Shown: one piece after another, positions 11,598 through 61,700 of the stretch
How the letters are laid out: every line of letters starts with the position of its first letter
Numbering within the stretch: the stretch's first letter is position 1
From: Ectocarpus siliculosus
Taxonomy: Eukaryota > Sar > Phaeophyceae > Ectocarpales > Ectocarpaceae
DNA: 64,000 nucleotides
Assembly (NCBI GenBank): GCA_000310025.1
Contig: FN649751.1
Span: 2,269,402-2,333,401, forward strand
Direction of reading: 5' to 3'
Notes under the pieces: model-generated
What the model was told of the DNA's origin: nothing
The model's database searches: none
What the model saw: the letters and a program-made list of their open reading frames with translations, nothing else
Program-made: the position numbers and the translations under genes

Positions 11598-12870
11598 GGT
11601 TCTCACCGGACCAGGCTCTCACATCACCAAGCGCGAAGCGCCGTGAGGTATTCGGCGAGTCGCATGAAGGGTGCGCTGTATCCTGCTAAGGGTGTTCGGC
11701 ATCTTGTGCTTACTTCCTTGCGTACGGATGACAGCTGCGTATGACTTAATTTACTTTCTGGTGCTTTCACTTCCAGAGACAGTTATAAGCATTGTGTAAC
11801 TGCCTCGAGGGTGCTTGACCATTTGAACTCAACGTGGTGCGATTCTCCCCTTTGCGCGGAGTGAGGGTTCTCGACCCCGCACAACATAATGTACTCGACC
11901 ACCATTATGGTTACCGCTAGAAAATAACCCAAAGGCAAAAAAAAAGCGATAACCTGGTTGCCGAGCTCACGAAGTGATCGGCTTGTTTCACAACATCGCT
12001 GCCAAGCGACGAAAACCCAACCCCGACGACAAACACCGGGGGGGGCATATGTGGGTCTGGGGTGAGCTATACCAAATCCGTCGTTGTGCACATTTTGGTC
12101 TTCTTAGATCGATATCACCGGGTGTGCCATTCTTTGGTGAGGATGGCTTTGGTGACCTTACTTGTTCGGTGACCTTATTTGATCTGAGAGTATTTTATGT
12201 TCACCGGGTGTGGATTTCTTCTGTGTGGGTGGTGATATCTTTATCTTTGTGGATGTGTTGTCTTGTGTGATACAATATTCAGTACATGGCAAAGAATGAA
12301 CTGAGTAAACGTCAACAAAAAGAGTACATGTGGTGGCAACAACAAGTACGCTGTCCGGCTGTGGTCTTTGAATTGTTCTTCTCCCGTAGTACTTATGTCA
12401 AAGCTACCAGCACTCCCTACACTTTTCCTGTGCAAGACAGCCTGGTTCGTATTGCCACCGCGTTGCTGTTTTTTTTGTATTGGCTATATTGCAAACTGAA
12501 CACGAAACCGCGCGTATTTACCATGAGATTAATACGTCACTGTTAAGTCGGCCCAGCAGATGAGAATTTTCCCTTGGGAGACCCACAACTGCCTGCAACT
12601 GTGGTGACAGGGAACAGCGGGGCCTTTTCGTTGTGGTCCTGACGCTCGTCGTTGAAGACAGTATTAATTGTCTTCTCTCTTCGAAGAATCCATCTTTGAT
12701 CCCAAATCCTGATTTTGTTCAATTTAATATGGCCAGCAATAGCCGCAGTTTCAGCCGCTGACTGCGCTTTTGTTTAATCCATTCCTCGCGCTTCCACCGC
12801 CGTACCTCAGGAGACCAAGCTCTGTGTCTACGTGGCCGAAACGCCTGGAGGGCCGCCAGGTTATCTCACC

Positions 12871-15800
12871 ATGGCCTCCTTGCGCGGCAGAAAGGCAGCG
12901 GCACCAATAGCAGCAGAAACCGAGGCTACAACATCACTGCCAGCAACGGAGACCGATCCAAACTCTCCGGGGGCCGGACAGGATCCACAAGCGGAGCATC
13001 AACGGAAGCAGCAGTGTCAGCGGCGCCTTTCGACGTCTCTCTCCCGTTCCCGTTCCCCTTCTTCGAACCCGCGCCGTCTCTCAGCCCCGCATTCGACTGT
13101 TGCCACGGAAGAGGGCAACGGGTACGACCTCTCAACTCCTCCCTCCTCCCCTGACTCCTCGGGCAGCAACAGGTGCGGCCGGTCATCTAGTGCTGCCAGC
13201 GCCGCAAGCACAAGTGGCGGCGCAACCTCGCACGAGATCCGCGGTCGAGTCCGCGGCCGCCGCCATTGTTCCTCCTCTTCGGCCGCCGCCAAGGATAGCA
13301 GTGTTGGTGTCGATGGTAGCAATGGGGCGACAAGGCAAAATAGTGTGGATGTGAAAGTTGACGCAGATATCCTTTCGGTACGCGGCGGGGTCGACTTCGC
13401 GGTGGAGGCTATCGGTCCCCTCGTGCGGTGGACGATCAAAACCAACGCCGGACAGCAGCAGCAGCAGCGCCAAGAGCAGCAAGAGGGAAGCAGCGGTCGG
13501 GGACAAGACCAAACCGAGGTGGACGGACGCAGCGCGAACAGTGCGGTCTGCGACAACACCGACCAAAACAAGACTGACAAAAAGTTTTACTTGCTCTTCA
13601 TCCCGGACGGCACCGACGACCCCCCCTTGATGAGGCAGATCTTAACGCGCGACGGCGGTAGCTACGAAGAGACCTTTGACCGACCGGGGTGCTGTAGGTT
13701 CGTTGTGGGCTCTGGCCCGATGACGATGGGACGCGTGGTCGTGTCCGGAGGGGGTGGAGAAGCGATGGCGTTTGATGATGATATCATCGACAACGACCCT
13801 ACTGCTGCTGGTTCTTGCGAGGTCCGTACGCAACCCGGGAAACGCGGGAGGGAAAGCTACACGGTACGTACAACTCCGTTTTACAATCGTCGTTCATAAT
13901 GTAAAGGTAACCAGCAAGCTCCAAGTTGTAATTAATGTATCGATACCGAAAAAAATATAACGTTGTGGAAAGTGTCGAGGGTCAGTCGCGTTGTTCGTGT
14001 TTCGACAATGGAGGGTTGCGTTGGGGTCTATCACTTCTCCGTCGACGGCGGGTATGCTTTCCTGGTGTGGTGGTTGGGGTTCAGCTTGCATGGTGGCGAT
14101 CGACCTACGCTCTAAGCATCCTTCTAACCAAAATCAACTTTGTGTAAACAGGCGAGGGGCCACAGGGACGATGCCTCGGGGTCGTCGGCTCCTACTACTC
14201 GAGTCCAGCAAGGAAATCACATGCAGCAGCTGCAGCAGCACGAAGACAGGGAAGACTTGGCCGTAGACGGGTTGAACCATGGTCACCCCGGTGAATCACA
14301 ACGTCCTATCGAAGGTGAGGCGGCGGCGTCTGCGCCACCGTCGCAGTTCGTGGCACCCTGTCGGGGCGCAGAAGCGGCAATAGAGCTGGCGGAGCACCTC
14401 GACGAGACACCCGTGCAAGGGGAAGTCGCAGCAGGGCCCCCTACGCCGTTGTCGGTTCCCCTGGTCCCGCAGGGCTATCCGTCGTTAGCGGTATCAACCG
14501 ACTGTGGTGGTGATGCTGGCGTCTGTGGTGATGAGACGGTGACGGTTTCGGCACGTGTTGACGGGCGAAATCGGTCGTCGCTCGCCTCTCCGAGTCCGAT
14601 CGTGCCTCCGTCATCTTTCGACACGGAGAGCGGCGAGCAGACGCCGCGGCGACGAAACCAAGAAGAGTCCATCGCCAGTGCGAATGCTGGCGGGTCTCCG
14701 GAAGAACCCTGTGAAGGAAGAGAAAGTCCCCTCCAGCCCTTTGTCCATGTGGGCGAGGGTGGGCCTACGGCCGCGTCCGACGCAGAAGGTGAAGCTGAAA
14801 TTGAGGTGATGGAAGTGATCGAGGAAGTGGGGAAGAAGAAACAGAGCGAGAGAGGCGAACACCCCGAAAATGAGGACAGCAAGCGCGATGGTGGTGACGT
14901 GTCAGGCTCTGGGGATCCCTGCTGTGCCGGCGGCGACGTGGACCAGGGGGCTTGGGATGATGCCCTTGACATCGGCTCAGGCAGCAACGAGGCAGGCGAA
15001 ATTTTGACGCTGGGCACAGATATACCGGCCGCATCTGCCGTCTCGGGCGGTTGCAAGAGGGGAGACGAGTCGGCCGAGACAGCTTCTCGTTCGGCGGATA
15101 CAACGGAGCCCGATACGTCATCGCGGGGAAAAGGAACACCTGTGACCAAGGTGGAAGAACCGCATCCGGAGGCAACAGCAGCAGCAGCAGCAGCAGCGAC
15201 GGTGGTGATCGGCAAAGACACCTCGAAAGGCCTGAGGTCTGCTCTCCTGTCTCCCGACCTATTGTCCCCAGCCTCTGAGCCGTCGAAGTGCCCGGAGCTG
15301 GTGCTCGCACGCTGCAGTGGTGGCGGCATCGGCGACTACCGTGACGTTGACTCAGACGACGATCCCGACGGTGATCTTAGCGACAACAGCCGCATCGATA
15401 GCGACGATGGGACTGCATCGACGAGTAGGAGTGTGAGGGGAGGAGCGTCCGAGGAGGCCCGACCGAGCTCACTGGTGGCGCTGTCCTCGGAGCCTCCAAC
15501 TTCATCGCTTGCCGCTACAGACGGGTTTGGCAGCGGCGGGGGCGGCGTTAGTGGCGGTGGCGGCGGCGAGTCTCCGTGTCTTGCCGGGGTGGTTCTGAAG
15601 GCAGAGGCCCCGCAGGTTTCGTCTTCTCTCCAAATCGAGCCCGTTACGACGAGGAGCCGTAGGATGGAATTGTCACCGGTGGACAATACGTTGACGCGGC
15701 GCGACTGGCCAGATGGAATGAGTCCGTTGACGTCTCCAGCGGTAGAGCGAGAACCGAGCAGAGACGACCGAGCTGCATTTGCCTGCTCGGATGATAACGC

Positions 15801-18800
15801 TGCTGCTGTGGTTTCGTCCTGCACAGTTGATACCAGTCATGCGACGGAGGGAGGACGACAGGTGGACATGATCGCGGTTGTTGGAGGTGAGGCAGAGAGG
15901 TCTTGGTTGGTTTTTGAAGCACAATGCGAGTTGGGTCTAAGCAGTATCGTCGTCTACGGCGTGGCCCAACTGGACACTTACAGCGGAATATCACCCGTGT
16001 GCCTTTTGTCGAGAACAGGCACGGTGACGAGTCTGAATGATAAACGTAAGAAAAGCGCACGATACTCCATGCTTACTGTGTGTACGGTTGCGATGAAGGA
16101 TACATGTTGACCAAGTTGAACGCATCGCCTAGAGAAACAAGGTAGCACCCTTCCATACAACCAGCTGCTGCGCACAACACGAGGGGTATCGCTACAGGTT
16201 AGACCTTACGTTGACCATCGTTGGTCGAGATAAGAGCGCGGGCCATGAACGAGAAACACCCTTTGGGCACCGGGCGTTGTACGTTTGTTCATGTGTTCAG
16301 ATTCACCCTTTGCTCGGGCACGAAGCCGCATTTGAGAGTTGCCGTACCCAACCAACAACAGACGGCCGGGGATACTGAGAGAGGGACCTCTGCGTGCGCG
16401 TGTGTGACAAGTGATTTATGCAATATATATATATATATATCCCTGCACCCTAGAATGAAACGAACATTATGTTGTCACTTGAACGTTACGGAATAGCGGC
16501 AAAGAAAGCAGTTTTCCGGCTTGGAAGGGGGCGCCACGGGTTGGGTTCCAAGTGTGTTCGTGGTGCTCTGTTTTCAACGAACTTCCGAGGCGTTCACTTC
16601 ATCACGTGCCACTTCTGTTCAATAATTTTTTAGTATGTTCCCGCTGGGTCAAACGCAACGCTTTTGCACACCCGGCGGCTCTCGTGTGAAACAAAAATGT
16701 ACTATTTCAAATCCTCCGAGACCCTGCCCAGACGCCGCGAAGTACTTCCGTCGATATATGTGAAAAACATTCTGCATCAAGAACCAGATCTCTGGTAACG
16801 GACGTGTTGCGCGTGAAGAAGAAAAAGCGAATATGTTCCATTTTCCGCCCCCAACTGCCCGCAAACTGTGATTGCGTATTAGATACCACAGTCGAGAAAT
16901 ATTGGTCGCAATCGATTCGTCACGAAGCCTCACGAGTATCGCAGCAGTGTCGGTGATATTGTGCTTGTGATCAACTTGTGTACATCTGTGTTGGGCTTGA
17001 ACAATAGCTCGCGAGGACCCACTAGTGCCGCAACTTAGCTTTTCAGGCAAGACAAGCAAAAGTCAGGCCTCGCGCCGCACTGACGACCCTTCTGATGGTG
17101 TGGTACAAGCATTCAATTTTTGGGATGGAACGACTGCAAAACCAATACCTTGCGAATGAACCTACACAAACAGGAGTCGACGATGGGGAGAAGGAGGAGG
17201 ACCTGGATCCACGCTCGGTCGTGAAAGGAGCACCCGCGGCGGTAGCGACGGCCTCGCTCGGGGCAGATGACAATGACCAATCGGCCAAGAGGGCGGGAGA
17301 CGAGATGCGCGTATCCGAGGGCGAGAACGACTACGTCACGGCGCCGCAAACTGTTTCGCCTCCAGGGCCAACAAGCAAGGACACGGGAGATGGTGAACCG
17401 AGGGCAGATGCCAGCAACGATACGCTGCCCTCCAGTTTCGGCCACGAGGCGACGAAGGGCAAGACTGGCACCGGCCAGGAGTCTCCTCCCCACGAGGATT
17501 CCTCCTGCTTGCGGCAGGTTTCTTCATCAAATGCCGGTACTTGCCCGGACAGCAGTGACGGCGGAGGTCAGCTCTGTGGATCGGAGGCTCCCAAGGCGAG
17601 CGCGAGTGAAACACATGGTACTTGCTCGAGCGGCAAATCGTGCGACGACGACGATGTTGGTGCGGTGACCGTAATCAGAATGGTCGGTGACGACCCCACC
17701 CAAGAATCCTTCATTCCTGAGACAGCCAAGGTTCGTGTCGGGGCCAGGGTGCATTGGGTGCTTAGCGGCGGTGCTGGCTCTGTGTCTGAGACCTTTCACG
17801 TGCGAAACGGGTGTCCGATTATTAAAAATGGGTGGGTGACGGAGTGCTCGTTTTCGCTCAGCGCCTCACAGCCCCGGTTCACCCACACTTTCCAGCAGGC
17901 GGGGACGTTCGTCGTGTCGAGCACCACCCTCCCATCCGAAGACGACAGGAAGAGGGGCGAGATCGTCGTGGAAAACACAAGCACCCAGAGCCATAGTGAT
18001 TCAGACAGCTTCGAATCCGCCGACAACGCCACCTCCACCCTTCCCGATGACGACTTCCACGATGTGGCCATCCTTGCTGATACTGCCGCGAGGCACGGCG
18101 GGGCAGGAAACCCCGTAATGGACCGTCTCGCTCCCTCCATGGTGGGGGGCTCCCGAACCTCGGCGGCTTTGTTGGATGCTCACTCCGAAGCAGAGACCAG
18201 CGGCGACGAGAAACATGATTTAGACGGAAGAGGGGGCGGCGGCAAGAGCGACAGCTACCACAGCCTGGATAACACGGACTTAGACGACACCAGGGCCACC
18301 CACCCCTGTGGGGTGAGTGTAGTGGAGTCTGGACGATCTGACGGCAGTGAGTGGGCTGGTAACGCGCCAGAAGCCAGTTCTTCAAAGACCAAGAAGAAGA
18401 AATCGAAAAAGAAGAAGAAAAGGGGTGCAGGCGGTGACGCTGGAGGCAGCGCCGACGGTAGTGGCGGGGGCGAAAAAGGGGGCGTCGATGGAGGTACAGG
18501 TGGAACCGGGGGCAAGGGCTTGAGCGTGCGCCGCGTTTGTGGGTTCGACGCATCGAAGGTTGAAGGGGGCATCGAGGATGACCCGGCGCTTTTGATCAAC
18601 GAGCTTGAGTTCTTGTCTCGGTACCCCGATCGCGTGGCGGGTATGAGGGGGGGGGGCTTGAAGTCGCAGGGCAAGACGCTCATCGTGGGGGGGCAGGGCT
18701 TCACGCCTTCGAAGCCTATGGTGGTGCAAGCGGGGGCTGCCGTGTTCATCAAGGCGGCTAGCGTTTGGCCCTACGGCGGCGGCGGACAGGAGCGAGTGCT

Positions 18801-21800
18801 GTCGATCGGTCTGCACGTTGTTCGCACAACGAAGGTTGGTGTTTTAGAAAAGTTGCGATGATCGCCAGCTCGTTCCAGTTGAAGCAAGGAAATATGCGAA
18901 TCAAGGATAGGTTAGGCGTTGTTAAGCACATTTCTCACAACACCGGCGCGTGCGTGCTCTTGCTGCGGTGGGACAAATCTCCATGGGTGACGGTGCTGAC
19001 GAATAAGATCCGTTCGTATCGCGTGCAGCGTCTCGGAAAGCACGTGAAAGATGCATTGCGGCGCGTTGTTCACCAGCTTGGCAATAGTCGTGCATTGACG
19101 CAACCATTAGGCCGCATCGTCTTTGAAGATGTAGACTACGCCGATGCAACCATTAATCCGTGACAACCGGCACGTGACCTGTACGATTGTGGTCGTGTTT
19201 TCTCGGTTTTTTGCCTGTTCGCCGTTCGTTTCCCATCAAAGCTTGTTCCAAGTAGGATTCTGGCCGGGCGTCTTAAGTGTCACCCGCCTCAACACGACGT
19301 ACACCCCTTTTCGCTGCAGGGTTTTCTTACCGTGCTATGACTCATCGCCCCCTACTTGTCCGTCTTTTTTCTTCTCCGCGCCAACCAACCTCGCCCCGTC
19401 CACTACGGCCAGACACAGCACTCCCCTGACAGACACGCTAGGCAAATCCCGGTCAAGAGGACGAATGATTCTGGAGGGCCTCTTGTGGCCGTGCTGCAGA
19501 AACCCGGGGTGTACACTCTGGTCGACAACCATTCTAGCAAACGGCTGAAGGTTACGGTGACCGAACGCCCCGAGGAGCCGCTGCAATTACATTCTTCTGC
19601 AGCGGCGAGGCTCCACCCGCCGGTGCCTGGGAAAGGAGAAAAAGACGGGCGATCGAGGCCGAGCAGCACACAGAACGCCGAACGTTCCAATAGCGCGGAG
19701 GCCAACAACACAGGGGGGGGTGAGGTCCTCTCGTCGTATCCCCGCTCAAAGAAGAAGAACAAGGGCAAGGAGAAGTCGGGTGCCGTTCCCGCTGCCACTA
19801 CTTCCACCGCCGCCACGCTTGCGGGCAATGCCGCATCCGCGTCAACAACGGAATCGCTGATCCACGCAGAGGCAGATGAGGCTATCTCCGTGGCGGAAGT
19901 CGCCCGCGGCGCCGGGGCGTCCGCCGGTGTGCCGACAGCACTATCGCCGCTACCGCTGTTGCCGCCGATACGGGTCAAGCAGGGAGGCGATGGCCTGAGC
20001 CTGGACGAGCTCGCCGAGCACTCCGCGCTGCACGGTGTGCATGTGGTGAACGTGTCCCACCGGAGAGGGTTCGAGCCGGCAGCGCTGGAGGTCGGTTTCA
20101 CCCCCGGGCTCGGTGCCTGCGTCATGTGCGACCTTGATTCGCAGCAGCGAGTGACGCGGGAGGTCGTGTGCAGGCGCCTCGTCGGCAGAGAAGGAAGAAG
20201 CAGCACCGCCAAGGAGGTGGGGTCTCGAAGTGTGGTGGGAGGGTTGGGGGACGTTTCCAACGGACATGGCGCCATCGGGGGCGATGAGGGCGCCAACGAC
20301 GATGCGGAGGAGGACGAGGACGATCCCAACGTCAAGTCAGCTCGCCTCGGCCCTGGAATCTTGAACAAGTGCTACTTCATGCTTGGGCGCTACGGGGATT
20401 ATAGGATTTCCTACCTGGGCGACGCAAGCAGAGGGGTTTCCGTCGTAGTGAGGCTGCCGCTGTCGTCTGGCGAAGGCGGAGGCTCTGAAGACGTGGTGAG
20501 GGCGTCGACAAGCGAGTTAGAGGTTTCTCGAGAGGGCGACGCAAGGTCGTTGTCGTCAGACGGAGTAGATGCTTCTGAAGAGAGTGGACGTTGCGACTCT
20601 GCGGCAGCTGCGTCGTCGGACGAGGAGAACTCAGCTGTCTTGTCTGGTCCGGCCGCAACTGCGACGGAAAGCGACGAGCCACAGGTTGGGTGTGCTACTG
20701 ATGCGTCTTCCTCGAGGCCAACCGAGGGCGGGCACGAGTTAGAGAACAGCTCGGCTGCAGCGGGTGCGGCGGCGGGTGGTGGGTTCTCTTTGGGGTCTGC
20801 GCCGGTAGACTGGGATAACGGCCAGGGCGGTTTCGTGCACCAGAGAGCTCAAATGAAGAAAAAGTCTCGGCGGCTCAAGCGCAACACGGCCGCAGCTGCC
20901 CTTGCCGTGGCTTCGGCGCAGGAAGCGGACAGAAAGGAGACTGCAGCGGCGGCTGCGGAGCCACGCCGTGGAGCGGTGGGCGAATTGACCGGTGGGGACC
21001 AAGCTGCCGCGGCATCGGCGATTCCCCGAGACACTGGTACCTCCAGCGTATCTCGAGCTTCGATTCACCTGCGTCGGGACCAGAGCGCATGCGCGACAGC
21101 CAGTTCCCAGGGGGCGACGGGGGATGGTGATGACGTTATGCTGATGGGTTCGTCTCTCAACAGGGTCAGGGCGCCGACAAGCGCTTCGCGGGGTGTTGGT
21201 ATATCTGTGAATGCTGCTGACGCGGAGACTGATGGCTCGGAGGCTGCTGCTGCCTCGGCCGCATCTGCGATCACCGACAAGCCGACTTCTTTCGGGAATC
21301 CTGACGTTGCGCCCGGGGATATCGAATCAACATCGCCGAGACCAGCTCAGATGGGAGCATGCAAGACGCGCAAAAAGTCCGACAGCAGGAATCTCGACTC
21401 TATCGATAGAGGTGCCTCATCGGTGACCCCAGCGCCGACACCGCCACCACCGCCGCGGCACCAGCAGCAGCACCAAGGTCCCCAGCGCACAGTGGAGGTT
21501 GGAAAGCAGAAGAAAGGCAAGCTGGAGCGCGGGGACTTGAGCGGTAAGACCTCGGGCGACGCTGCACCGAGGGCACTAGCGCCTCCAGTCCTAGCAGCAG
21601 CTGGTGCCGGAGAGGAGGAGAAACATAAACCACAAGCCGCCTCAGGTCGTACGGGTGCTACACGGGCGGCGGTGGCATCTGGTTGGGGGCATTCTAGTAT
21701 GGGCGCTTGGCGGAGCGACGCAAAGGGCGCCGCCGCTCATTCACAACAGTATTCAGGGAGCCTACCTCGAGCTAGTGCGCTCGACAGTGGGTGGTCCCGA

Positions 21801-24023
21801 ACGAACCAGTCCCGCGGAACGAGCGTGTCCGGGCGTTGGGGCAACCCTCCAGCCACGGTGTTTGCCCAACCTCGTCCGCCGCAGAGGATACTACAGGGGC
21901 GTGGTGGGGAAGGGGAGCGGACCGCGTCGTTTGGGCCACGGGCGGATGATCCAGCCACGGGCGGTGGCTCAGTCGGCGGGCCTGTTTCCGCCCGACCGAG
22001 TACGATCGTGGTCGACAGCGAGGAGCAGGAGCTGGCCGGTGTCGGCGGCGAGAACCTGCCAGCTTGCGGTGGACCTGAATCGACAGAGACTCCCGCGGTG
22101 TTGCCGCCCGCTGGAGCAACGACGACGACGGCGGCGGGAAGGGTCCCCCCTGGGCGCGTATCGAGCCGCACGGACACCTGTCGCTCTCGCCCTTTTGTCT
22201 CCAAAGACGACTGTCCCTCTTTCTCGCCAAAAGGACGTTCTACCGCTGACAGGTGTCGTGGTGCTCCGGCGACCAGTGGAGCACGAGTGGCAGTGGACAA
22301 AGCGGGTCTGCCCCGGCCTCAATCGGTGCTTGGTCAGGCAGCGGCAACAGGCGTCCAGTCTGTCGGGAGCGGAAACGGTGGCGGTGGGAAGATCAATGTA
22401 GGTGCCAACGAATCGGCTTGTTCTTCTCTGAGCACGGACGTGGTGGAGGGTCGTCGCTCTTGGGCAGACGTTTCGGCCTCTAACCCGTCAGACGTAGCGT
22501 CCGTAGGGTCGACATCGTCTACCAGAGCCTCTAACTTCGGGGCCGCCAGCACCAATACGTTGAATAAAAAGCAGAAAAAGAAGGCCAAGGCGGCCGAGCG
22601 CAAGGCGGCCAAGCGGAAAGCCGCGGCGGCAGCAAAGAGTGGAGCGGCAGCGGCGTCCCTGGCGGAGGAGTCGACGCTGAAGCCCTCCGCAAAACTGCAG
22701 GCTTCTCCTCCAGCGGAGTCCGACCGTTTTTCCACCAAGCAACGCCATCCTGTGGCAGTTACTCCCGAGACGGTTGCTGCCGGATCGCACGTGGATGTGC
22801 ACGAGGCGGGTGCGGGAAGCGGCAGTGGCGGTGGCAGTGGCGGTGGCAGTGGCAGTGGCGGCGGCGGCGGCGGCGGCGTAGCCGAGGCTACCATGGCAGC
22901 CTCCCCTAGCACCTCGTTCAGGAACCGAGCCCCGCTCGAGAATGTCACCGCGGGCAACGTATACAGCGCGACAGGCCCTACTTCTTTGTCTTCGTCGGAC
23001 GAGGGTGGCGTCGCACGCGTATCCTCGATGCCGGGGTTGGCCTCCGGTGGATGGACGCACGCAGCAAGAGAGGGTCGAGGAGGCGCGGAAGAGAAGGGGA
23101 CTGGTGGTGCCGGTGCTCCCAATCCTGCGGGACACGCGGCCGGCGATGATGGCGACGGTGCTGGTGCGGGCCGAGTGTTTGGCGAAGGGCCTGACCGCCC
23201 GCCGCCGTCTGAGCTGGCCATCACGGTCACAGAAGAATCCTCACCGGCGATGGTTGAAGCCACGTCCGTGCCTGTTGCTGCTGCGCCGCTGCAAGCGCAA
23301 GCCCTTCAGTGGCTGCCACCTGGGTTCGGCGGCGATCGCCTCTGTGATGAAGCACGTCCTTCCGCCGCAAACGTACCAGAAGGCACAACGAACCGTACAT
23401 CTTGCACCCCGACCGGAGCGCCGCCCGGTTTCGACGGCGACCACCTTCGTGATGAAGCGCATCCTTTGGCGGCAACCGCCGCAGGAGGCGGAATGAAATC
23501 TGCTACTCGCCCCCCCACCGGAGCGAGTACGACCCCCACTGATATTTCGGAGGCGGCCGCGGCTGCAGCGGGGACCCTGGCCACGGCAGCACTGGCGAGC
23601 AACCCGACCGGCGGCCGGGCACAGAACTCCGCGAAGCAGGGCGGCGGTGGAGGTTTCGGTAACTGTTCTACGAAGATTTCTTTGGAGGAGCGGTCGCGGC
23701 GGAACCGCGCGCTGAGTGCAGGTGCTTCCCCTTTCTTTCCGGCGAGATACGGGCACCGTGGTCGGCGGGGCTATCGGACGGTCCAGCAGGCGAAGCCTGC
23801 GCAATTTCCGGAAGAGAGCCGGCTGCCGGGTGGGGGGTACTTCGTCGAGGAGGGCCCAGACGACACCCTCCCGCCGCCCTCGGCGTTCGAGATGCAGGAA
23901 GCCGCCCACATGATGAAGGTGTACAACGACATGATGGAGCGGCTGCGCACAACAGGCATGGACGAGACGCTTCCCAACGGGTTTACACCCCGGATTTACG
24001 ACTTCACAGAAGGCGGTTGTTGA
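12871..24023 (+). CDS. Giant protein with four degenerate cupredoxin-like domains and a C-terminal PAM2-like motif
   Basis: I recognise no named family. Model: 12871-13863, 14152-15886, 17174-18834, 19458-24023 (about 2,984 aa); phases agree, but the junctions into exon 3 and into exon 4 are the least certain. The ATG at 12871 has an ACCATGG context. Cupredoxin-like strand patterns lie at nt ~13340-13790 (VRWTI ... YEETFDRPGCCRFVVGS), ~17660-17990 (VRVGARVHWVLSG ... FTHTFQQAGTFVVSS), ~18670-18834 continued from 19458 (MVVQAGAAVFIKA ... LQKPGVYTLVDNHSS) and ~20030-20460 (FMLGRYGDYRISYLG). The usual His/Cys/His/Met copper ligands are mostly missing, so copper electron transfer is unlikely. Linkers are acidic/Ser-rich or Lys-rich (18385-18423, 20850-20885, 22560-22640). 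LSAGASPFFP (23712-23741) fits the PAM2 pattern LxxxAxxFxP, which binds the MLLE domain of poly(A)-binding protein. A cytoplasmic mRNA-associated scaffold is my inference. Confidence 0.7.
16423..16440. repeat. TA dinucleotide microsatellite
   Basis: About nine TA units in the intron between exons 2 and 3 of the cupredoxin-like gene. Confidence 0.9.
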
Positions 24024-26319: not shown

Positions 26320-29300
26320 TCACCCCATGTCGTGGCCTGCATTTCGGGCTGTTGCTGCCTGCCCACCGACACCGAACCGGCCAACCAGCTGCTGGTAAAT
26401 GTCGCGAACGGTGTCGTACTGGTTGTCGAAGGGGGCCTTCTCGTGCTCGAGAAACTCTTTCCACATGACCATGAACCGCGTTGAGGCTTCGTTCCTCCAG
26501 TCTCCGACAGCCCGGCTGCTGCTGCTGCTGCTGCTGCTGCTTCTGATGTGGTGATTCTTGCTCCTTGCCAGCCCACCAGTCTGCTCGGCCTCCAACGATG
26601 CCGCGGCGGTAGTAGAGAAGATAGTTCTCGAATCCCCTCCCTCTCCCGTTCTTCCTCCGCCGGCATAATTGCCGAAGCCACTCTGTCCTCCATATAGTGC
26701 TGGACACTCACCGTCGGTCTTGTCATGGCCACTGTTTGATGTGTATATTTTCTGCGGCTGCCGTTGGTCATGACGGGAGATGGCACCTGCGGCGATAGTC
26801 TCGGTCTTCCAAGGCAACAGGGGGGTTGCCCCTAGCGGATCGGGGGGAGTAATCAACACGTCCTCGTCGCCCCCCTGGCGCTCGACGCTCTGTTGCCGGG
26901 AAAGTCTGACAAGGTTAAGGTATGCGAGACCCGCGTTCTTTAAAACCGAGGCCTGCGGAGGCCTGTTTTGGATTTGTCGATGACACCGGTGTGGGGCAAG
27001 CGGGAGATGGGGAGAAGGTCAAAACTGAGCTGTAATGGTGGCGTGCCGGGTCGGACACGGCGGAACACACGCCGATAGAGCTTGACCGGAAACTGCGAAG
27101 CTTCCCGAACTTTACACGCATACTCTGAGTGTCATGGTTCCAGCTACGTACCCATACGTGGTAGGGCACTAGCGCCCCCCCGCTCACGAACTCACACACG
27201 CAGTTAAGAAGCCGACGTTGATTTTTCTACTTGAATTAACGCGAAGATATCCAACGAAATAAGACAAAAAGGCAAGGGACAAAACAAAAACAAGCACGCC
27301 CCACCCACATTCCGTTGTAGCTCCGCAGCACCGCTTCTAGGTACAGAACGGCTGTGACCATCATATCCCGCTCGAACGGGCCCCGCTCCTCATCTGGCAC
27401 CGCCAGAGCTCGCTCCAGGCCGTACGCGGCCGTCTCCGCGGCCGCGTCGTACACAATGATTCTCAGGGTGCTCTCCCACCACTCCGGCCCGTATTTGTCC
27501 CGCGGGGGCAGCGACAGGCTCCCGTCCTCGCTACCATCGTTGTTTTCGGTAGTGCTGGCAGCTGTGGCACGGCGGCTGCCTCCAAAGCGGCGGCGGTCTA
27601 CCAGCGTAGCAATCAAGCCCCAGACCCCGTTGCTGTTGCTACCGTAAGTGTCTCCGACGGTTGCGACCACCCGAAATTCTGCCGCCACTGTCGCCCAGGC
27701 CTTGGAGGAGTGGCAAACCCACAGTGCCGTCGGAAGCGGCGCCGAGTTGTGGCGGCGTACCACCCTCCTCGCCAGCCCCACGGGAACGAAGTCGTATGCG
27801 GTGTCCATGGATGGCTCGGGAAAGTTGGGCCTCCCTACCATGAAAATATTGCCCGAGGCGCGGTCGAAATTTGCGTCGAGAAACTCGAGCAAGGTGAAAC
27901 CGCCGCCGCCACTAGCTTTGTCATGGGTGGAACCGGCGGCCGCGTATCTTTCGCCGGGAAAAATTATCTGTGTGTACGAAAGAAACGAGCGTACGAATAC
28001 CAAAAAAGAATCATGCACAAGTGCTAAGTTTCGGGAGTCCCAAACTCGCACTGATGCAACTTTAAGAGTAGAGATGATACCCGACGGCCGAAGAGACGCG
28101 TCGTTTTCAAAACCCGAAGAACATGCCGTACGCGTGACTAGCGCGCTGGGTACGGCAGCCCCAAATACACAGCGAATGCCGATGTCCGTAGAACAACGGG
28201 GAGCCGGGGGGAGGACACCGCTTTCGTGTACCTCGTTCGCTGAATCATTCACCTGAGGATATAGGTCCCTCTTCACGTCCCACCACAGGAAGGTCATCAT
28301 AGCCATGTTTAAGAGACTGACGTCTTGTCGGAACCCCTCGCAAACCTGCATGTACCTCGTGGATGTCCACTTCAATCCACAAAGCGAGTCCATTACGCAG
28401 GCGCGCGTTGGAAACAAAGTAAACAACGCAAGCGAACTCATCAATGCCCTCCCACGAGAGTCCGATGCGTCTCTTGAGTGACTTCTTACGGCCAACGAAA
28501 GCAGGGAAAAATCCTGGCGTGCTGTATCTGACTCAGCTAGCAAGATACCATTCCTGCATCAGAAGAAGGGAGTCCACCGTGCTCAGCGATACGAACCCTG
28601 CTAGATTCGATAGAAAATCCACACGCCTCGGTGGCTCAGGTGACTTAAGCCCCAAAGAAACATTAGAGTTTTACGGCCCGGCAGTGCAGACCGTCGTGGT
28701 GGCCAGTGCCACACTCTGCTATGGACGCTCCTACTCCTTTTAAGTCAATCCGCGAAGCAGGTGAGTCACCATCGCTTTACCGTACGATGTCCTTTCCCTC
28801 ACCATCTGGTCGTTGTTGATGAGAAATATCGACCTCGGCGGCAGTGGGCCGAGCACCGCCCTCGCGTAGCTGCTGAAGTGGGTGGCGCCCCTCTGGTCCC
28901 CCGCCGCGTAGCCCCTGGCTAGCTGTTCACGAACAAGCCCGATGCACGCCATGGTCGCCAACATAGTTCCGATTCCTTGGCCCAACCACCGTCTGTTGGC
29001 AGTGAGCAGCGCGTAACGGCTTGTTTGTTGGTGGCATACTTTGACGTGTTGCGTTTAAAAGCAAGCGAAGATAGTAATGAAATAATGTGCGGAGTACACG
29101 TAACGCCGTGCCCATCTGTCGGCCCATGCTGTAGGTTCACGGGTTCATGGAGTATACGAATAAATGCGACGAGACAGAAAGCAGGCAATGAAGAGACACC
29201 GGGCACACAAAACAGCCGTCAGATGAAACATGACCGTCCAACACCCCATATGTTTCGCTCCCGCAACTCTCTGTATTCAGCCTGTGATGAACATTCGCAA

Positions 29301-31831
29301 GTACTGCTTCGTCTTCATACATCATCACGTAGACTCTGGCTGACCTGACGAGATCGAACGTCTGGTACATGCCGACTCCGCAGAAAACGAACACCACGAT
29401 GTTGGGCTGCATCCAGAAGCGAGCGTGGACTCCGAACAGGAGTGGGTCATCGAGTGGCATATTCGACAACCAGTGGAACACGACCAAGTACAAGACTAGG
29501 GCCGCCAACAGTGCTGCCGGGGCGCTGAATCCCGTGTCGTCCCACGATGCCAGGACCCCAACTACGGTAGAACACGATGTCACCTTCCTCGACACTGGTG
29601 AGTCATTGTGTTTGGCCGTATTCTGCTGCTGCTTCTCCTTGCTGCCCGTCGAATTCCAGGTTGACCCTGTTGAACTCCCTCGCTCTGTCTCGTCTTTAGA
29701 TCTCGTACCCGCTGTCGATGCGGGACGTGGTGACGCCGCGCAACTAGTCTTCTTCGAGCGACGACGGATGCCCTTCTTTGTCCTGGACGATAGTGACGAC
29801 GCCAGCTCACTGCAGACCGTGCGGCTACCGGACGACGGTGCCACTAGAGCTCCAGAGAAAAACTCCACCATGAGACCCTTCGAAGACGTCGTCCCTGCTA
29901 CAATGTCAATACGCATTTCCCCCTCTCCTTCGCGTCCTCTTTCTCTCGACGGTATGAACACTAAGAGAGACAGCACCCCGAGCACGGCCAGAGCCGGAAC
30001 CACCCCGCCGAGTCCCTGCACTGACGACAGGTCGTCAAACCAACTCAAAAGGCGCTCTGCGCAGTCTCGGCCAAGGCCCTTGCCGCTACTGCCCCCGGCC
30101 TTGCCAGAGTAAAGCCGCAGAGATCCGTAATCGCCACGACGAATATGATGCAGAAAGCCACTCCACGTGGTAACGTTGCCCCACGATCCGCGCTTGGGTG
30201 CGCGCTTCGCGGCCAAGGGCAGAAAAGCGTACGGTGCAAGGCCGAGCAGAAACACGGCAGCAAGTAACGTAGTCTCTAAGGAGAGGCGGCGCCAAGGGTG
30301 CAGCTGCCGCTTCTGTTGCGGGTGCCCCTGTTGCTGTCGTTGTTGATGCGTGGTGTGGTATTGGCGGCAGCGCGAGGTGACGAGCTGGAGCATGACCCAG
30401 GCAGCCAGCGGGGCTACATACAACACCGCAGTGTGCTGGTTGCTGAGGGCGAGCCCGCTCACGAGCGCTCCTCCTGTGGCGGTGGCAAGCTCCCGGTGAA
30501 GCGAAAATTGCACAACAAGCGAGCACAGGAGTGAGAGAAGGAAGTTGTTGAGCGCGAAGACCTCAGCAGTGACGGAGTACTGCCAGGTCAGCGGGGAGAA
30601 CGCCATAAGTAACGCCGCACACCCTGACGCGAGCTCCCGCAGCAGTACTGTTGTTGCACCATCCCCACTCTTTCGCCACCACAACCGATCGCGGAGGCAC
30701 GTACTGACGCACTCGAAGAAGGTACTTTTCGATACAGTTTCTCCTACCGCCTGCTGCTGCTGCTGCTGCTGCTGCTGACGGTCATCAGTGCTTTCACCAT
30801 ATCTCCACCCCCAACGTGGGCGAAGCAGCAAAAGCGTTGTCTGCGCTGTGAATAGGACGGCAAGAGCCCCCATCATCGAAGCAGTTGCATTCGCGTACCA
30901 CGCGGGCGACGCTCCCCCGTCTGCCTCCGTGCCCGAGCTTAAGCCTACATATTCCAACAGAACCGGAAGACCGCGGGTGGTCATGTGGTTCAGGAGCGTG
31001 AACAGCGGGTAGCCTGGGGGATGAGCTGTGCCGAGGTGGCAGGACTCGGCCACCAGCTCGCCGGCATCGCCGCCAGGTATTCCGGGAGCAACCGTCGCCA
31101 GGTATACCCCAAAGGCACATGTACCGACCAGGAGTCCTGTTTACGTAAGAGGACCATGCGCACGGCGGTAGTGCATTTAGGGACCGTTTAGATCGGCTGT
31201 GGCGGCGTGTGCTTGTTTGGAGGACCAAGATACTCTTGGTGCCCATGGCCAAGGAAAATGGGGCCGAAAATGGCATGCGGACGAACTTCTATTGTTGCAA
31301 CACGAAACACTCCAGTACACGAACATTATATTAGGATATCAAATGAAAACAATTTCATTTGCCACCGCACGCCGTTGTGTGATTTGGTGTGGTGCACAAA
31401 GCATGACTGTCTCTGCAGATGACGTAGACGGGTAGATTGCACACACCTGCTGGAAAGATCGTTGTGGATCTGACGTGCGCTTCGGCTTGCTGCGGCAAAA
31501 GGGCCTGCGGTTGATTTCTTGGAGGCATGGTATCCGGTCAAGATGATAGAGCGAGGGAGAAGTCAAGTGTGCCAAGGCGTAGCTGAAGTTAGCGAGACGC
31601 TCTGGCAAAGATCGACCGCCGACCCACAAGACCGCTTCCTCTGAAAAAAAAAAATCGACAGGTTTCCAGTTCGTCCGGAGGCGGATTGGTTCTCCCCGGC
31701 TCCTCCTGACTCCTGCCTCCTGCCTGCTCCTGTGTTGGGCCTTGCTCTAGGCTGTGAGCTGTGATTGCATCGAGCGTGGCAGGTGGAGATACAAGAACCT
31801 TCGACTTTCCCTCACCTTCTCTCGCAGGCAT
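26320..31831 (-). CDS. TMEM260: TMEM260-like (DUF2723) polytopic protein O-mannosyltransferase
   Basis: Animal TMEM260 is an ER GT-C enzyme that O-mannosylates IPT domains; the algal substrate is unknown. Exons: 31831-31816 (only 16 nt), 31136-29345, 28992-28803, 28369-28253, 27967-27305, 26937-26320; total 3,396 nt, 1,131 aa, phases consistent. The N-terminal helix leads into [14 protein letters not shown] and [11 protein letters not shown], the signature of the family, with acidic D29 and E32 in the catalytic loop region. Several membrane segments follow. [18 protein letters not shown] and, in the lumenal part, [17 protein letters not shown] and IIFPGERY are also diagnostic. The C-terminal region ([27 protein letters not shown]) ends at the TGA at 26320. 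Inserts absent from a typical member include a Gln run (30756-30779) and a basic Ser/Lys-rich loop around 29590-29830. The tiny first exon is inferred from donor, phase and position only. Confidence 0.92.
26516..26544. repeat. CTG/CAG repeat coding for poly-Ser in TMEM260-like
   Basis: A run of CTG on the plus strand gives a serine run in the last exon of the minus-strand gene, next to the conserved C-terminal helices. Confidence 0.85.
30756..30779. repeat. CTG/CAG repeat coding for poly-Gln in TMEM260-like
   Basis: About eight CTG units on the plus strand, read as a Gln run between two predicted membrane segments of the minus-strand protein. Confidence 0.85.
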
Positions 31832-56100: not shown

Positions 56101-56881
56101 GGAGGGGGGAAGGGAGAGACAGTTTTGGTGTGTTTTGAGGTCCAATAGATCTACTGAACCGGAGGCACGCCCGATTTGGCTACTTGAATCAAGCTGTGGC
56201 CCAGCATCTTGATATACATTTTGCTGCCGAGGACTGCGTTTTCTGTTGGATAGTGCTATGCTGAATTTAGCTCAACGCTTCTTCCCTGCTCGTACCTCTC
56301 CCACCCCGTATCCCGCGCATATCCCCTCCTCTTTGTACCCCTCTCATCCTCTGCGTGTCCCGCTCTGCCCCCTCATACCAACCAAACTTCCTGCAAACTT
56401 CGAACGCCCGTTTGCAGACAAACGGAGCGGGCATTTGCAGAACAACAATTTTTTTCTGATGAGCAATCTAAAATCGACGAGGAGCAGCAACGGCCGCAGC
56501 AACGTCGACGACGATGATGGCGTGACAGCTAGTGGAACTTTTGGTGCTACTCTAGACGTCACAAGCCACGACTCTTCGGCATACATCCGCGTATCCAAGA
56601 TCTAAGGCGTCGTGCGTCAGAGGTTTGCGTATGGGTTGCCGTAAGCCTCAGTTGTGCAGGAGTAATGCGCCATCGAATACGATGGAGACGTAGCTGTACG
56701 CCTGAGCCAGAAAGGACGACAAAGATAGATGGCTGAGACGGCTTCATCATGCCCATGAGCAGTGGCAGCATGTGGCAGCGCCGCGGAGCCTGTGTTGCCT
56801 TTTTGGAAGGATTGCACACCCTGTACAAATACAAATAACAAATACAAATAATAGTTGCGGGTATTTGTCCAGGGCAGTATT

Positions 56882-57235
56882 TGCCTCCAGACAAATATTT
56901 GCGCAGGTTCTCAGGAGAGTATTTGCCTGCAGGCAAATATTTGTGCAGGTTCTCAGGAGAGTATTTGCCTGCAGACAAATATTTGCGTAGGTTCTCAAGA
57001 AAGTATTTGCCTGCAGGCAAATATTTGCGCAGGTTCTCAAGAAAGCATTTGCCTGCAGGGAAATATTTGCGCAGGTTCTCAAGGAAGTATTTGCCTGCAG
57101 GCAAACATTTGTGCAGGTTCTCAAGGAAGTATTTGCCTGCAGGCAAATATTTGTGCAGGTTCTCAAGAAAGTATTTGCCTCTAGACAAATATTTACGCAG
57201 GTTCTCAAGAAAGTATTTGCCTGCAGACAAATGTA
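56882..57235. repeat. 42 bp tandem array A, 8 units
   Basis: Units start at AGGTTCTC, at 56905, 56947, 56989 and every 42 bp to about 57199. Each carries the palindrome TATTTGCCTGCAGGCAAATA or a near variant. Confidence 0.93.
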
Positions 57236-57654
57236 TTTGCGCATGCGGAGATATTGACCTCTTCGGCCTACAAGTAAGTACGTATGCACAAATGAGACCG
57301 TTGAGCCCGGTGTATTTGCAGCCGCAAATAAATATCAATTGGTGTTTTTGGGCCCTTGATTTTTCTTGTTTTTTGCCACAGGAGTTGACTCATCATCCAA
57401 CGATACGGAATGAGTGAGATGGTGGAGGGGTTGTGGCGTCGGCGAGTGTGGCCGTGCGTGGCTGTTGTAGATTGATCCTGTTTTTTTCCACCCCGATCAA
57501 CGGATATTTCAGATGCCCGCTTCAGCGATGGGCTTCTGTATTTCCGAGACCAATCTCCCATCGCATGCATGACATGCGGCTAGTCTCTCCCTCAGACTCT
57601 CCCCGCAGTACCAGCTGTTTTTTTCAAAATATTTGTCAGGACAAATACAATAAT

Positions 57655-58075
57655 ATTTGCGCAGGTTCTCGATAAAGTATTTGCCTACAGACAAATATTT
57701 GCGCAGGTTCTCAGGAGAGTATTTGCCTACAGACAAATATTTGCGCAGGTTCTCAGGAGAGTATTTGCCTGCAGGCAAATATTTGTGCAGGTTCTCAGGA
57801 GAGTATTTGCCTACAGGCAAATATTTGTGCAGGTTCTCAAGAGAGTATTTGCCTCTAGACAAATATTTGCGCAGGTTCTCCAGAAAGTATTTGCCTGCAG
57901 ACAAATATTTGCGCAGGTTCTCAAGAAAGTATTTGCCTACAGACAAGTATTTGCGCAGGTTCTCAAGAAAGCATTTGCCTGAAGGCAAATATTTGCGCAG
58001 GTTCTCAAGAAAGTATTTGCCTACAGGCAAATATTTGTGCAGGTTCTCAAGAAAGTATTTGCCTGCCAGACAAAT
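57655..58075. repeat. 42 bp tandem array B, 10 units
   Basis: The same unit in the same orientation as array A, with AGGTTCTC at 57663 and every 42 bp to 58041. Variants within the palindrome centre (GCAGGC, ACAGAC, CTAGAC) recur in both arrays. Confidence 0.93.
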
Positions 58076-58103
58076 ACCAAATACTGTATTTGTACAGGGT
58101 GTG

Positions 58104-58761
58104 AAGGATTGCGATTGGACCCACGGCTGTGCGCTCAAATCGCCAACAAGTTTGTTTTCGTGCGACCGGACGTGAAGTTCAGCACATGACTTTGCATAGC
58201 TGAGAAAAATCCAAAGCCCATGCGAGAAATGAGGGGAGCCCGGACGACCCCTCTGACGTGTGTACTCTGCTCGGGCAAGCTAACCATGAGACACGCGTTG
58301 AACCTCCGCCCTGTGTATCACGAGTGCGGTCGGCAACTCTCTAACCCACAAGCGTTTCCTTTTTCACATTTTCCCGAGACACACGATGGCAGCGTAGGTT
58401 CCTTGAAACTTGGCAATTTCTGACACGACCCCGTCAACGTTTTGGTAGATCCAAGGTTTTAACAGTGTACCATTGTTTTTTGTCTGGGAGAAAATTCCGC
58501 GCTATCGTCGCGTTACTTGGCCGACCACCGTCGGATACACCCTAGAGCAACGGTACCTGCTGGCCCTGATAGCGCATAGTTCGAACTGATGGGCACTACT
58601 GTGTCGAAAACAAGTCGTCGAACTATCGAGCAGTGGACCACCCGTGGGAGTTCAGATGGACTGTTTTCCTCCAACGTCTTGCACACAACGCTCGAGACTC
58701 GAGACCATATCCTGAAAATGGACCAAATCCACCGCAGTGCGAACACGGCTGTGTGCCACTC
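58104..58761. other. Short intergenic gap
   Basis: From the hAT-like element to the stop codon of the IQ/WW gene. Begins with the right target duplication (58104-58111). Probably 3' UTR of the minus-strand gene. No other feature seen. Confidence 0.5.
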
Positions 58762-61700
58762 TCACAGGCTTGCCATTATTATCTTCTCCGACAAGAGACC
58801 CCGTGCCCTAGCCGCACGCCATGCGCACTGAATATCCACGGCGGCAGTGGTAATATGTTCGGCGCACAAGCTATGCCACGGCATCCGTTCTACAACTGCA
58901 TGTTCTCCGTCCGTCGCCACGTTCTCGCCGACGCGATCACCAACGTGTTCATCTTCGCCACCCCCACCCGCCACTCCTGCCAAAGAGCTGCAGATTCCAT
59001 CATCGCTATCGACATGGGACAAAGAAAAGCCTCTTTTCCTTCGTCCGCCAAAGCCGAACCCGAAAGGCTTAGTCCACTGGCTACAATTTGTTTCGCGGCA
59101 GACATAAAACGGGTGTTGGTACTCCTCGTCAAAGTACTCGACGAATCGGGCGTTAACCGCAGCGATTGTTTGCGACCGTTCGAGACGAGATCGTACGACA
59201 GCCTGTAGTTTGACGACGGCCCTGAGAAGCACAGACTCTTGCTCTCCGACCTCGTCTGCGGTTTCTGCTTCCGCCTGAGTCCACCACAATTCTTCTTTTC
59301 TCGGCAGCATTGGTGTGCCATCCTCGTCGTATACCGCCTGCCCCCCTTCTGCCCTAGCTCCCAGCCCCTGCTCGTTCGAAAGTGCCGCAGAGGAGCAACG
59401 CCTCCTTGGAGAAGACAATGGTTGGTCATCACTCCCCCGTGCCGAAGAAGAGTACAAACTAGCGTGCGTAGAAGTAATACCGTCTTCGTTGTCACCGATA
59501 GCCGTGGCACGTTTGGGCGCTTCTTCATGTTCTGCTATCCTTGTATTCTTCATTCCAGGTTGTCTTGATTTAAGCCCTCTATTTCTACGTCGTTCCCGCC
59601 ATCGCGCAACGCAACCGCGCACTAGAGTCTGCATTCGGATGGCAGCGGCATCCTCCAGCGCAAAGCGTCTCGTCAGCCTAGCCCTCGCGGTGAGCGAGGC
59701 CGCTTGCAGGGTCTGAGCGACCTCTAGTTGCTCGGCCAGCTGTTCGATATGGGCGGACAACGAAGAAGAGGAACAAGACAAGCTTGCTGTGCTAGTAGAA
59801 TCATGCTGGCGCTTCTCGAAACTATTAGAGACTTCCGGCGCTTTGTTCGCATCACCTCCACCCAACTTGTTCCCGAGTGAATGCTTGACTATTATTGCAT
59901 CCCGACTTTGCTGAACGGAATCCTCCGCGGTAGCACTTGAAGAGTCGGTGGCGGCGGCGGCCAACAGCTCCAGCTGAAACAGACGCTCATTTGCACAGGA
60001 AGTGGCGCTCTGAGCCGCTCGCACAGCCGACTCGGCTTTAGCGAGGCATTCTTCGCGAGGCGGATTGTTGCCCTCGTTGAGGAGGCGTGATAGCTCCGCC
60101 GCTCGGTTACTGGCGGACCGAACAGCGGCTTTCGCAGACGCAACGCTGATGAACGTTCTACTCCTGCTGTTATTGTGATTGTTGCAAGCTTGTTTCAAGG
60201 AAGGGTCGCCGCCGCGGGAATCGGCCTCCGTCGCTGCACCTTCGCCGTTGTCGGGAGCTTTCCGAGAGGGCTTGTCTTCGTCTGGGAGGGTGGTAGGACC
60301 AGTGGTCATGGCGGCGGCACCTGTCATAGCAGTTCCGCCGTGAATGGGAGCACCCCCCTTGTGCCCTGCTTTCCCTCGCTCTCGCCAAAAGGCCGCCATG
60401 GTTCCCTCTCCAGGCGCGGCAACGTCGATACCAACACCTACATCAACACGGCTACCATCACCTAGAGTACTACTCCCGCCACTACCAGGGCTGCATCCTC
60501 CAGCACCCCAGAACCACCCACTCGGTTGTGCTGCTCCAGTCCCCGAAGCCTCGCCCTTGCTGTTTCCAAGGTCATGGTGCACGCATCCTCTTGCCTTCGC
60601 CTCGGGTGGGACGACACCAGTGTTGTTGCGAAAGTTTGGGTTTGTTTGGGCTGAGGTACCGTTGGGGACGACAGGAAAATTCGACGGTCTGTACAGCTCG
60701 TCGTGCTCACGGATTGTTGCGAGGAACACATCGGTAGCACTCTCTGTTGCGATGCCTGAAGCTCTAGCTGACGACGCTGATGGTTTCTCGGCGGTCGTTG
60801 GTGGTGCCGACGATGACTTTCTTGGTGTAGAGCTCAGAGGCCACTTTTTTACAAGTGCGCGCCCAGCATGTACGATCTGGCGAAGGTCAGCTTCAACCTT
60901 GGCGGCGGCCGCTTGGTGTGTAGTTCTGTTGCATCGCTGCAGGTCTTGAAGCAAGCTCTCTTGCGTGTCCGACTTCTTCTGCCACTTTCAAGTTGTGTCG
61001 TGTCCGGTTTGGGGAGGACAGAAGCGTGTCATGGCCGGATAAAATGTACGGGGTGTCAAACAGTGAACACGGCGGTTGATCTTCGTCCGTTTCTCTGCCA
61101 TGGTGTTTTTTACTACAAGTACAATCCTACGCTAGAACTCCCCGAATGAAATTTGCGCGGAACAACCCGCCTAAAATGTGTAGCACTCAAGACTGCAGGG
61201 CACACCGCTAATTGTGAACGATAACTGGCGGCAAAAACTTCGTGAGCATTGAAAAAGAGCAACCGGTTGCCCTCGCCCACAAGAAAAGAAATGAACACTA
61301 ACAAGTCTATCTACGCAGATGGTGCAAGTGTACATCGTGCCGAGCAAAGACAGACAAACTTCCAACATGATACAAGATACTGTACGTAGGCCACTTACTT
61401 AGTCAGGCAAAGGAGTGTACCTACTGCTGTAGTACGGTGAGATACAGCAGCACTACTGTGTACAAACAGTACATACATCTAGGTAGTAGTCTACTGCCGT
61501 GTTGCCACGCCCGCCAGAGAGGAGAGAAAAAAATTGTAGTACGCCCTGACAATTGATGTGGTACTTACTTGCTGGAGCTGACGGCGAATATCCTCAGATG
61601 ATTGCCGTCTCCGCCGTAAGGATGTTGTACCCTCTCTACGTGTCTTCGACTCTACGGTTGCTGTTCCCCGCTCCTTTCCGGTACCTCTGTACATACAGAG

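Follow-up and report, generated by a model that had tools for sequence, protein, structure and literature searches.

The window analyzed here, a stretch of 64,000 nucleotides from Ectocarpus siliculosus (contig FN649751.1, named C26 in our genome searches), holds four plus-strand exons which plausibly constitute a single predicted gene encoding a very large protein. The initial annotation, made from the letters alone, had read four cupredoxin-like domains mostly deprived of copper ligands (D1 to D4) in this chain. As judged by profiles, shuffles and decoys, D2 stands as cupredoxin-like in sequence beyond chance, D3 is suggestive and D1, where a hairpin alone matches, is possible, a ranking adopted because only D2 matches along its length; D4, taken alone, is not convincing.

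Gene model and composition of the chain

Four stop-free frames of the plus strand (12778-13899, 14128-16110, 17026-18861 and 19341-24023) are present where the initial annotation had put the protein, and the exons inside them (Table 1) join in phase into 9,000 bases, giving 2,999 residues and a single terminal stop. The donor sites (ACG/GTACGT, GAG/GTGAGG and AAG/GTTGGT) come from a splice-site scan. The acceptors 14152 and 17174 (both AACAG/G) and 19458 were picked by eye, the first two also by phase, and all three fall below the pyrimidine filter of the scan, with weak tracts at 14152 and 17174; acceptor 19413 passes it. The guanine plus cytosine (GC) content, taken as the mean of the three codon positions, is 61-64% in the exons and 46-53% in the introns. 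Gly, Ala and Ser are abundant in the chain and aromatic residues scarce; since the highest hydropathy over 19 residues, found inside D1, is only 1.3, no membrane span was seen.

Another open frame of the plus strand (18762-19163, 133 codons) overlaps the end of exon 3 and extends into intron 3; its second-position GC is low (0.40). It was rejected as an exon; no second copy was found in the genome and Pfam reported no family for it.

Table 1. Features of the predicted gene, in positions of the window
Feature	Position	Strand	Description
Exon 1	12871-13863	+	First in-frame ATG to donor ACG/GTACGT; contains D1
Exon 2	14152-15886	+	Low-complexity, acidic, Ser/Gly-rich; donor from the scan; phase 0 with exon 1, phase 1 with exon 3
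Exon 3	17174-18834	+	Contains D2, Lys-rich tract and first half of D3; donor from the scan
Exon 4	19413-24023	+	In frame from either acceptor (19413 or 19458); contains the second half of D3, then D4, and ends in a long tail of low complexity and the stop
D1	13345-13758	+	Candidate degenerate cupredoxin with an insert rich in Gln; match confined to the hairpin around GGSYEETFDRPGCCRFV
D2	17656-17988	+	Cupredoxin-like domain without copper ligands; basis: PDB, plasmids, profiles, shuffles, decoys, alignment
D3, first half	18670-18834	+	Suggestive; GFTPSKPMVVQAGAAVFIKA
D3, second half	19458-19575	+	Suggestive; LQKPGVYTLVDNHSSKRLKVTV
D4	20022-20465	+	Candidate fourth domain with acidic insert; pattern only
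Lys-rich tract	18391-18420	+	KKKKSKKKKK; others at 19746-19775, 20856-20885 and 22566-22625
Trp cluster	21678-21845	+	Four Trp in 52 residues, flanked by Gly/Ser (SGWGHSSMGAW...SGW...GRWGN)
PPGF motif 1	23316-23327	+	LPPGFGGDR
PPGF motif 2	23421-23432	+	APPGFDGDH
PAM2-like motif	23706-23744	+	RALSAGASPFFPA

Cupredoxin-like domains

The domains were scored with four profiles, built from 14 cupredoxins (13 loci and the 1iuz fragment) as haloarchaeal, plastocyanin and pseudoazurin groups and all together. Because plastocyanin 1iuz used as query found no match in prokaryote contigs, these cupredoxins were drawn from plasmids and phages, and two loci (L010 and L011) were excluded because D2 itself had found them, which would have been circular. 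Scores were compared with those of shuffled sequences, which keep composition and not strand periodicity and are therefore no test of fold, and with those of 740 further frame windows, taken from either strand of the window. For D1 and D4, both the uncut sequence and a version with inserts cut by our own choice were scored, the cut versions scoring higher; D3 was scored mainly with acceptor 19458.

D2 gave 15.0 bits with the haloarchaeal profile, a score reached by none of 10,000 shuffles and none of the 740 frames, and the alignment spans nearly all of the domain, FIPETAKVRVGARVHWV strands included; linker windows of the same protein (57 tried, 52 scored) did not exceed 0.6 bits with this profile. 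With the all-cupredoxin profile, one shuffle in 10,000 and no window frame scored as high. The sole PDB match at E up to 10 was plastocyanin 1pcs (residues 10-87, E 0.92), and tblastn in 72,556 plasmid records returned three matches (E 3, 4 and 9), two of which fall in PF00127 proteins (E 1.7e-14 and 6.3e-15), the remaining one being annotated as acyl-CoA dehydrogenase. The alignment of D2 with phage plastocyanins (17-28% identity) covers the full length, and D2 keeps many of their core residues (I6, M8, F18, P20, G28, V31, F65, F78 and G82, and further P92, G100, I102 and V104). The cupredoxin core pattern FxP...VxxGxxVxW/F ... F...GxY/F ... GxIxV is present in D2 and partly in D3.

The loss of copper ligands claimed by the initial annotation holds for D2, where T, S, S and K stand at the H, C, H and M columns of the alignment with 24 phage plastocyanins; a His lies two residues off the first of these columns, and an alignment slip could leave one ligand surviving. 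For D1 and D3 the ligands were looked at by eye only, D3 having a single His, within VDNHSS. Folded with AlphaFold, D2 alone gave a predicted local distance difference test (pLDDT) score of 34 and this model was discarded; with the 24 phage plastocyanins as alignment, pLDDT rose to 70.9 with a predicted template modeling score of 0.64. Searched against the PDB, the latter model gave 1,664 matches, of which the 50 listed are by title cupredoxins or cupredoxin-domain enzymes, with 1pcs first. Because the alignment presupposed plastocyanin, this model indicates compatibility and is no proof of the fold. A joint alignment of D1, D2 and D4 was misaligned and was dropped as folding input.

For D3, spliced to 19458, the better of two PDB matches was plastocyanin 1iuz (residues 7-90, E 0.089). 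The plastocyanin profile gave 7.7 bits, with one of 10,000 shuffles as high (30 of 10,000 with the all-cupredoxin profile), over 34 residues of the hairpin region; spliced to 19413, D3 scored 3.6 bits with the all-cupredoxin profile, and 17 of 2,000 shuffles did as well. It was graded as suggestive because an unrelated frame of the window scores as high, and this downgrade leaves the odds of the explanations weighed below unchanged because they rest on D2. For D1, trimmed, the haloarchaeal profile gave 8.3 bits, reached by none of 10,000 shuffles or 740 frames; untrimmed it gave 7.1 bits, which five of 10,000 shuffles equaled. With the all-cupredoxin profile 14 (trimmed) and 70 (untrimmed) of 10,000 shuffles did so. 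The match is 21 residues long and corresponds to the C-terminal hairpin. With the haloarchaeal profile D4 reached 1.1 bits when trimmed, a score equaled by 157 of 10,000 shuffles, and 0.3 bits when left untrimmed (487 shuffles); with the all-cupredoxin profile 308 and 763 of 10,000 shuffles, respectively, were as high, and its score was attained by 8 (haloarchaeal) and 30 (all-cupredoxin) of the 740 frames. Neither D1 nor D4 found a match in the PDB. A profile of D1 to D4 together retrieved, at E up to 10, eight PDB chains of which seven are plastocyanin, amicyanin or blue-copper proteins, the best E being 0.07. Taken one by one these E-values are weak, and their mutual agreement is what counts in favor of a cupredoxin relationship.

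Several results weigh against this relationship. Every domain wins with one of the four profiles, the others being ordinary or nearly so: D2 is ordinary with the plastocyanin (1,280 of 10,000 shuffles reach its score) and pseudoazurin (247) profiles, D1 with the same two (678 and 4,871), and D3 with the haloarchaeal (1,756) and pseudoazurin (1,024) ones. With the plastocyanin profile an unrelated minus-strand frame, one of the 740, also attains the 7.7 bits of D3; with the all-cupredoxin profile two of the 740 frames reach the score of D1 and two that of D3. The PDB E-values of the domains range from 0.07 to 1, and the whole of exon 3 gave two low-complexity matches in the PDB and no plastocyanin. 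Pfam and NCBIfam returned no cupredoxin model for the single domains, nor did Pfam for the exon frames up to E 10, a range in which most matches above 0.1 are filtered out. An exon-wise profile search found neither PF00127 nor PF13473 in the genome.

C-terminal tail and candidate motifs of the mRNA machinery

The PAM2-like motif and two PPGF motifs, which are additional to the features listed by the initial annotation, sit together in the final 250 residues. The initial observation proves partly right, and this tail makes it somewhat more interesting than had been stated. The PPGF motifs belong to a tandem repeat whose copies, about 35 residues long, have diverged (23313-23444, plus strand; PPGFxGDxLxDEAxPxAA, by eye). 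The scan used a broader pattern, which we take to be that of PAM2 and for which block shuffles of the protein give an expectation of 0.018 matches; across the window frames (57,131 residues) this pattern occurs twice and the core L[NS]xxAxxFxP, formulated after the sequence was seen, once. The PAM2 consensus is LNxxAxEFxP (PMC7356810). The copy found here shares its L, A, F and P; S replaces the conserved N and P replaces E, which counts against the mRNA-linked explanation proposed below, as does the fact that these short motifs were chosen after looking. The two PPGF motifs compare with 0.32 PPG-hydrophobic motifs expected, and two were reached in 3.7% of shuffles. The Trp cluster was matched in 2.0% of 5,000 whole-protein shuffles, and the count of GW/WG dipeptides is ordinary (six versus 4.4 expected, P 0.26).

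The genome encodes domains able to bind such motifs: one MLLE domain over two exons, adjoining a frame that by eye resembles poly(A)-binding protein (PABP), and one partial GYF match (GWYYLDPQNRIQGPF), presumably of the SMY2 type, which covers profile positions 1-29 of 45 and lies in a Gln-rich frame. One Piwi locus, with six exon matches, lies on another contig (C2). The GYF domain of plant EXA1/PSIG1 reads PPGF (PMC5657617 and PMC7910438), and GIGYF2 binds TNRC6 at its PPGL (PMC5467174).

Uniqueness of the protein

Genome searches covered 189 Mb in 492 contigs, a size which, like the introns, points to a eukaryote. They found no clear second copy of D1, D2, D4 or the C-terminus, and for the last 125 residues the genome gave no match other than the query's own locus. 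Two weak matches to D2, on contigs C44 (E 0.39) and C141 (E 1.0), each have an internal stop, and a weak match to D4 lies on contig C9 (E 0.06); the frames on C44 and C9 looked chance-like and were rejected. Apart from its own locus, D1 had seven weak matches with E between 0.024 and 4.3, and internal stops interrupt six of them. Viral contigs held no relative of D1, D2, D4 or the C-terminus, and prokaryote contigs none of D2. The suggestion of an undescribed family is tentative: no Pfam or NCBIfam family scores above cut-off for the protein and no protein of such a kind was found in the literature, an outcome limited to these sources.

Other features of the window

On the minus strand, a 667-residue open frame (29140-31140) matches TMEM260-like O-mannosyl-transferases (PF11028, E 3.9e-21), two frames (56562-57389, E 1.8e-5, and 57512-58279, E 4.1e-5) match DUF357 below its threshold and are possibly coiled or repetitive, and in a 741-residue frame (58765-60987) the match to an IQ calmodulin-binding motif is borderline (E 0.0004).

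Proposed explanation and alternatives

Our best explanation, advanced as a tentative one, is that of an mRNA-linked scaffold in which dead cupredoxins would serve as binding modules. An intron-containing eukaryotic gene would encode a large, putatively mostly disordered and soluble protein, in which D2 and perhaps D3, as the sequence supports, descend from cupredoxins of the plastocyanin/azurin type with loss of the copper site. This loss may have turned electron carriers into plain binding sandwiches, by analogy with ephrins. The C-terminal tail would bind PABP through the PAM2-like motif, the two PPGF motifs would bind a GIGYF-type protein, and the Lys-rich tracts may contact RNA or anionic partners. 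The scaffold would thus bring the ligands of the cupredoxin domains to polyadenylated mRNA and its repression machinery. The intracellular location supposed by the initial annotation would fit both the absence of a strongly hydrophobic segment and the mRNA-type motifs.

Known systems resemble this protein in part. D2 shares with the PF00127 plastocyanin/azurin cupredoxins the strand pattern and core residues; unlike in these, its four ligand columns are changed and no Pfam cupredoxin model fires, and whereas these are small electron carriers, D2 sits inside a long, putatively disordered eukaryotic protein. The ephrin domain is devoid of copper. It offers a precedent for a cupredoxin domain turned into a binding module, in this case for receptors (PMC6485061). 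Ephrins, however, are membrane-attached and act outside the cell, whereas no strongly hydrophobic segment exists here. FtsP/SufI likewise has several copper-less cupredoxin domains, but it is a bacterial periplasmic protein, compact and without disordered linkers. In plants, SMG7 and URT1 also carry PPGF, through which they are bound by a GYF protein tied to P-bodies and decapping (PMC5657617 and PMC7910438); unlike in them, no EST1, TPR or nucleotidyltransferase domain was reported by Pfam in the exon frames.

A second explanation, which we likewise hold as possible and short of an even chance, accepts the cupredoxin ancestry of D2 and makes the protein a lineage-specific disordered scaffold, structural or signalling, with PAM2-like and PPGF motifs arisen by chance in some 3,000 residues of low complexity. 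The probability of a PAM2-type match is 1.8% and that of two PPG-hydrophobic motifs 3.7%, each chosen post hoc. Seven PPG[FILMV] occur in the 57,131 residues of the window frames, and the PAM2 pattern is matched a second time on the plus strand, near 49,600. The gathering of both kinds of motif within the last 250 residues, in a genome that encodes domains binding them, argues against this explanation.

It is unlikely that the beta domains belong to a different sandwich fold of the Greek-key or immunoglobulin-like kind, PKD for example, with a cupredoxin likeness limited to the THTFQQAGTF hairpin. The sole Pfam match of D2 is indeed PKD (PF00801, E 0.0044), over 24 residues and only profile positions 41-62 of 80, at 17.4 bits versus a cut-off of 23.5, and the cupredoxin matches of D1 and D3 are likewise limited to the hairpin region. 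The hairpin FTHTFQQAGTF fits PKD and cupredoxin alike, and the first half of D2 fits cupredoxin: the domain aligns nearly full-length with the haloarchaeal profile through its FIPETAKVRVGARVHWV strands and with plastocyanin over residues 10-87, and the PDB matches listed include plastocyanins and no PKD entry. A PKD profile considered as a rival yardstick was dropped, PKD being found in two of eight plasmids with one match each, too few for the purpose.

That exons 1-2 and 3-4 form two genes, or that the model is wrong elsewhere and no single four-domain chain exists, is quite unlikely. In its favor, the frame of exon 3 extends open as far upstream as 17026 and has ATGs ahead of the acceptor, the 133-codon frame continues through much of intron 3, two chosen acceptors are pyrimidine-poor, and intron 2 measures 1,287 bases; against it, splice phases agree at all three junctions and 17026-17173 reads as non-coding in composition.

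The mRNA-linked scaffold can be carried further, to a counterpart of TNRC6/GW182 that would have evolved independently, a giant messenger ribonucleoprotein scaffold holding PABP (by PAM2), a GIGYF-type repressor (by the two PPGF) and perhaps Argonaute (by the Trp cluster), with targets chosen via up to four copper-less cupredoxins, a reading we consider very unlikely. TNRC6/GW182 does combine a GW-rich region, a PPG-hydrophobic GYF motif and PAM2 on one chain (PMC5467174); here, in contrast, there is only a small Trp cluster, and a cupredoxin-like domain instead. Unlike TNRC6/GW182, the four exon frames show no UBA-like or RRM domain in Pfam up to E 10.

Significance

The most familiar cupredoxins either carry electrons as small copper proteins or form part of extracellular and multicopper proteins. 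A worn-out cupredoxin beside motifs of the mRNA machinery, in a soluble and disordered protein of a eukaryote, would, if true, be a new setting for this fold, and the protein would also be a candidate post-transcriptional regulator. Were it truly a counterpart of TNRC6/GW182, it would represent an intracellular use of the cupredoxin fold not described in the literature we found.

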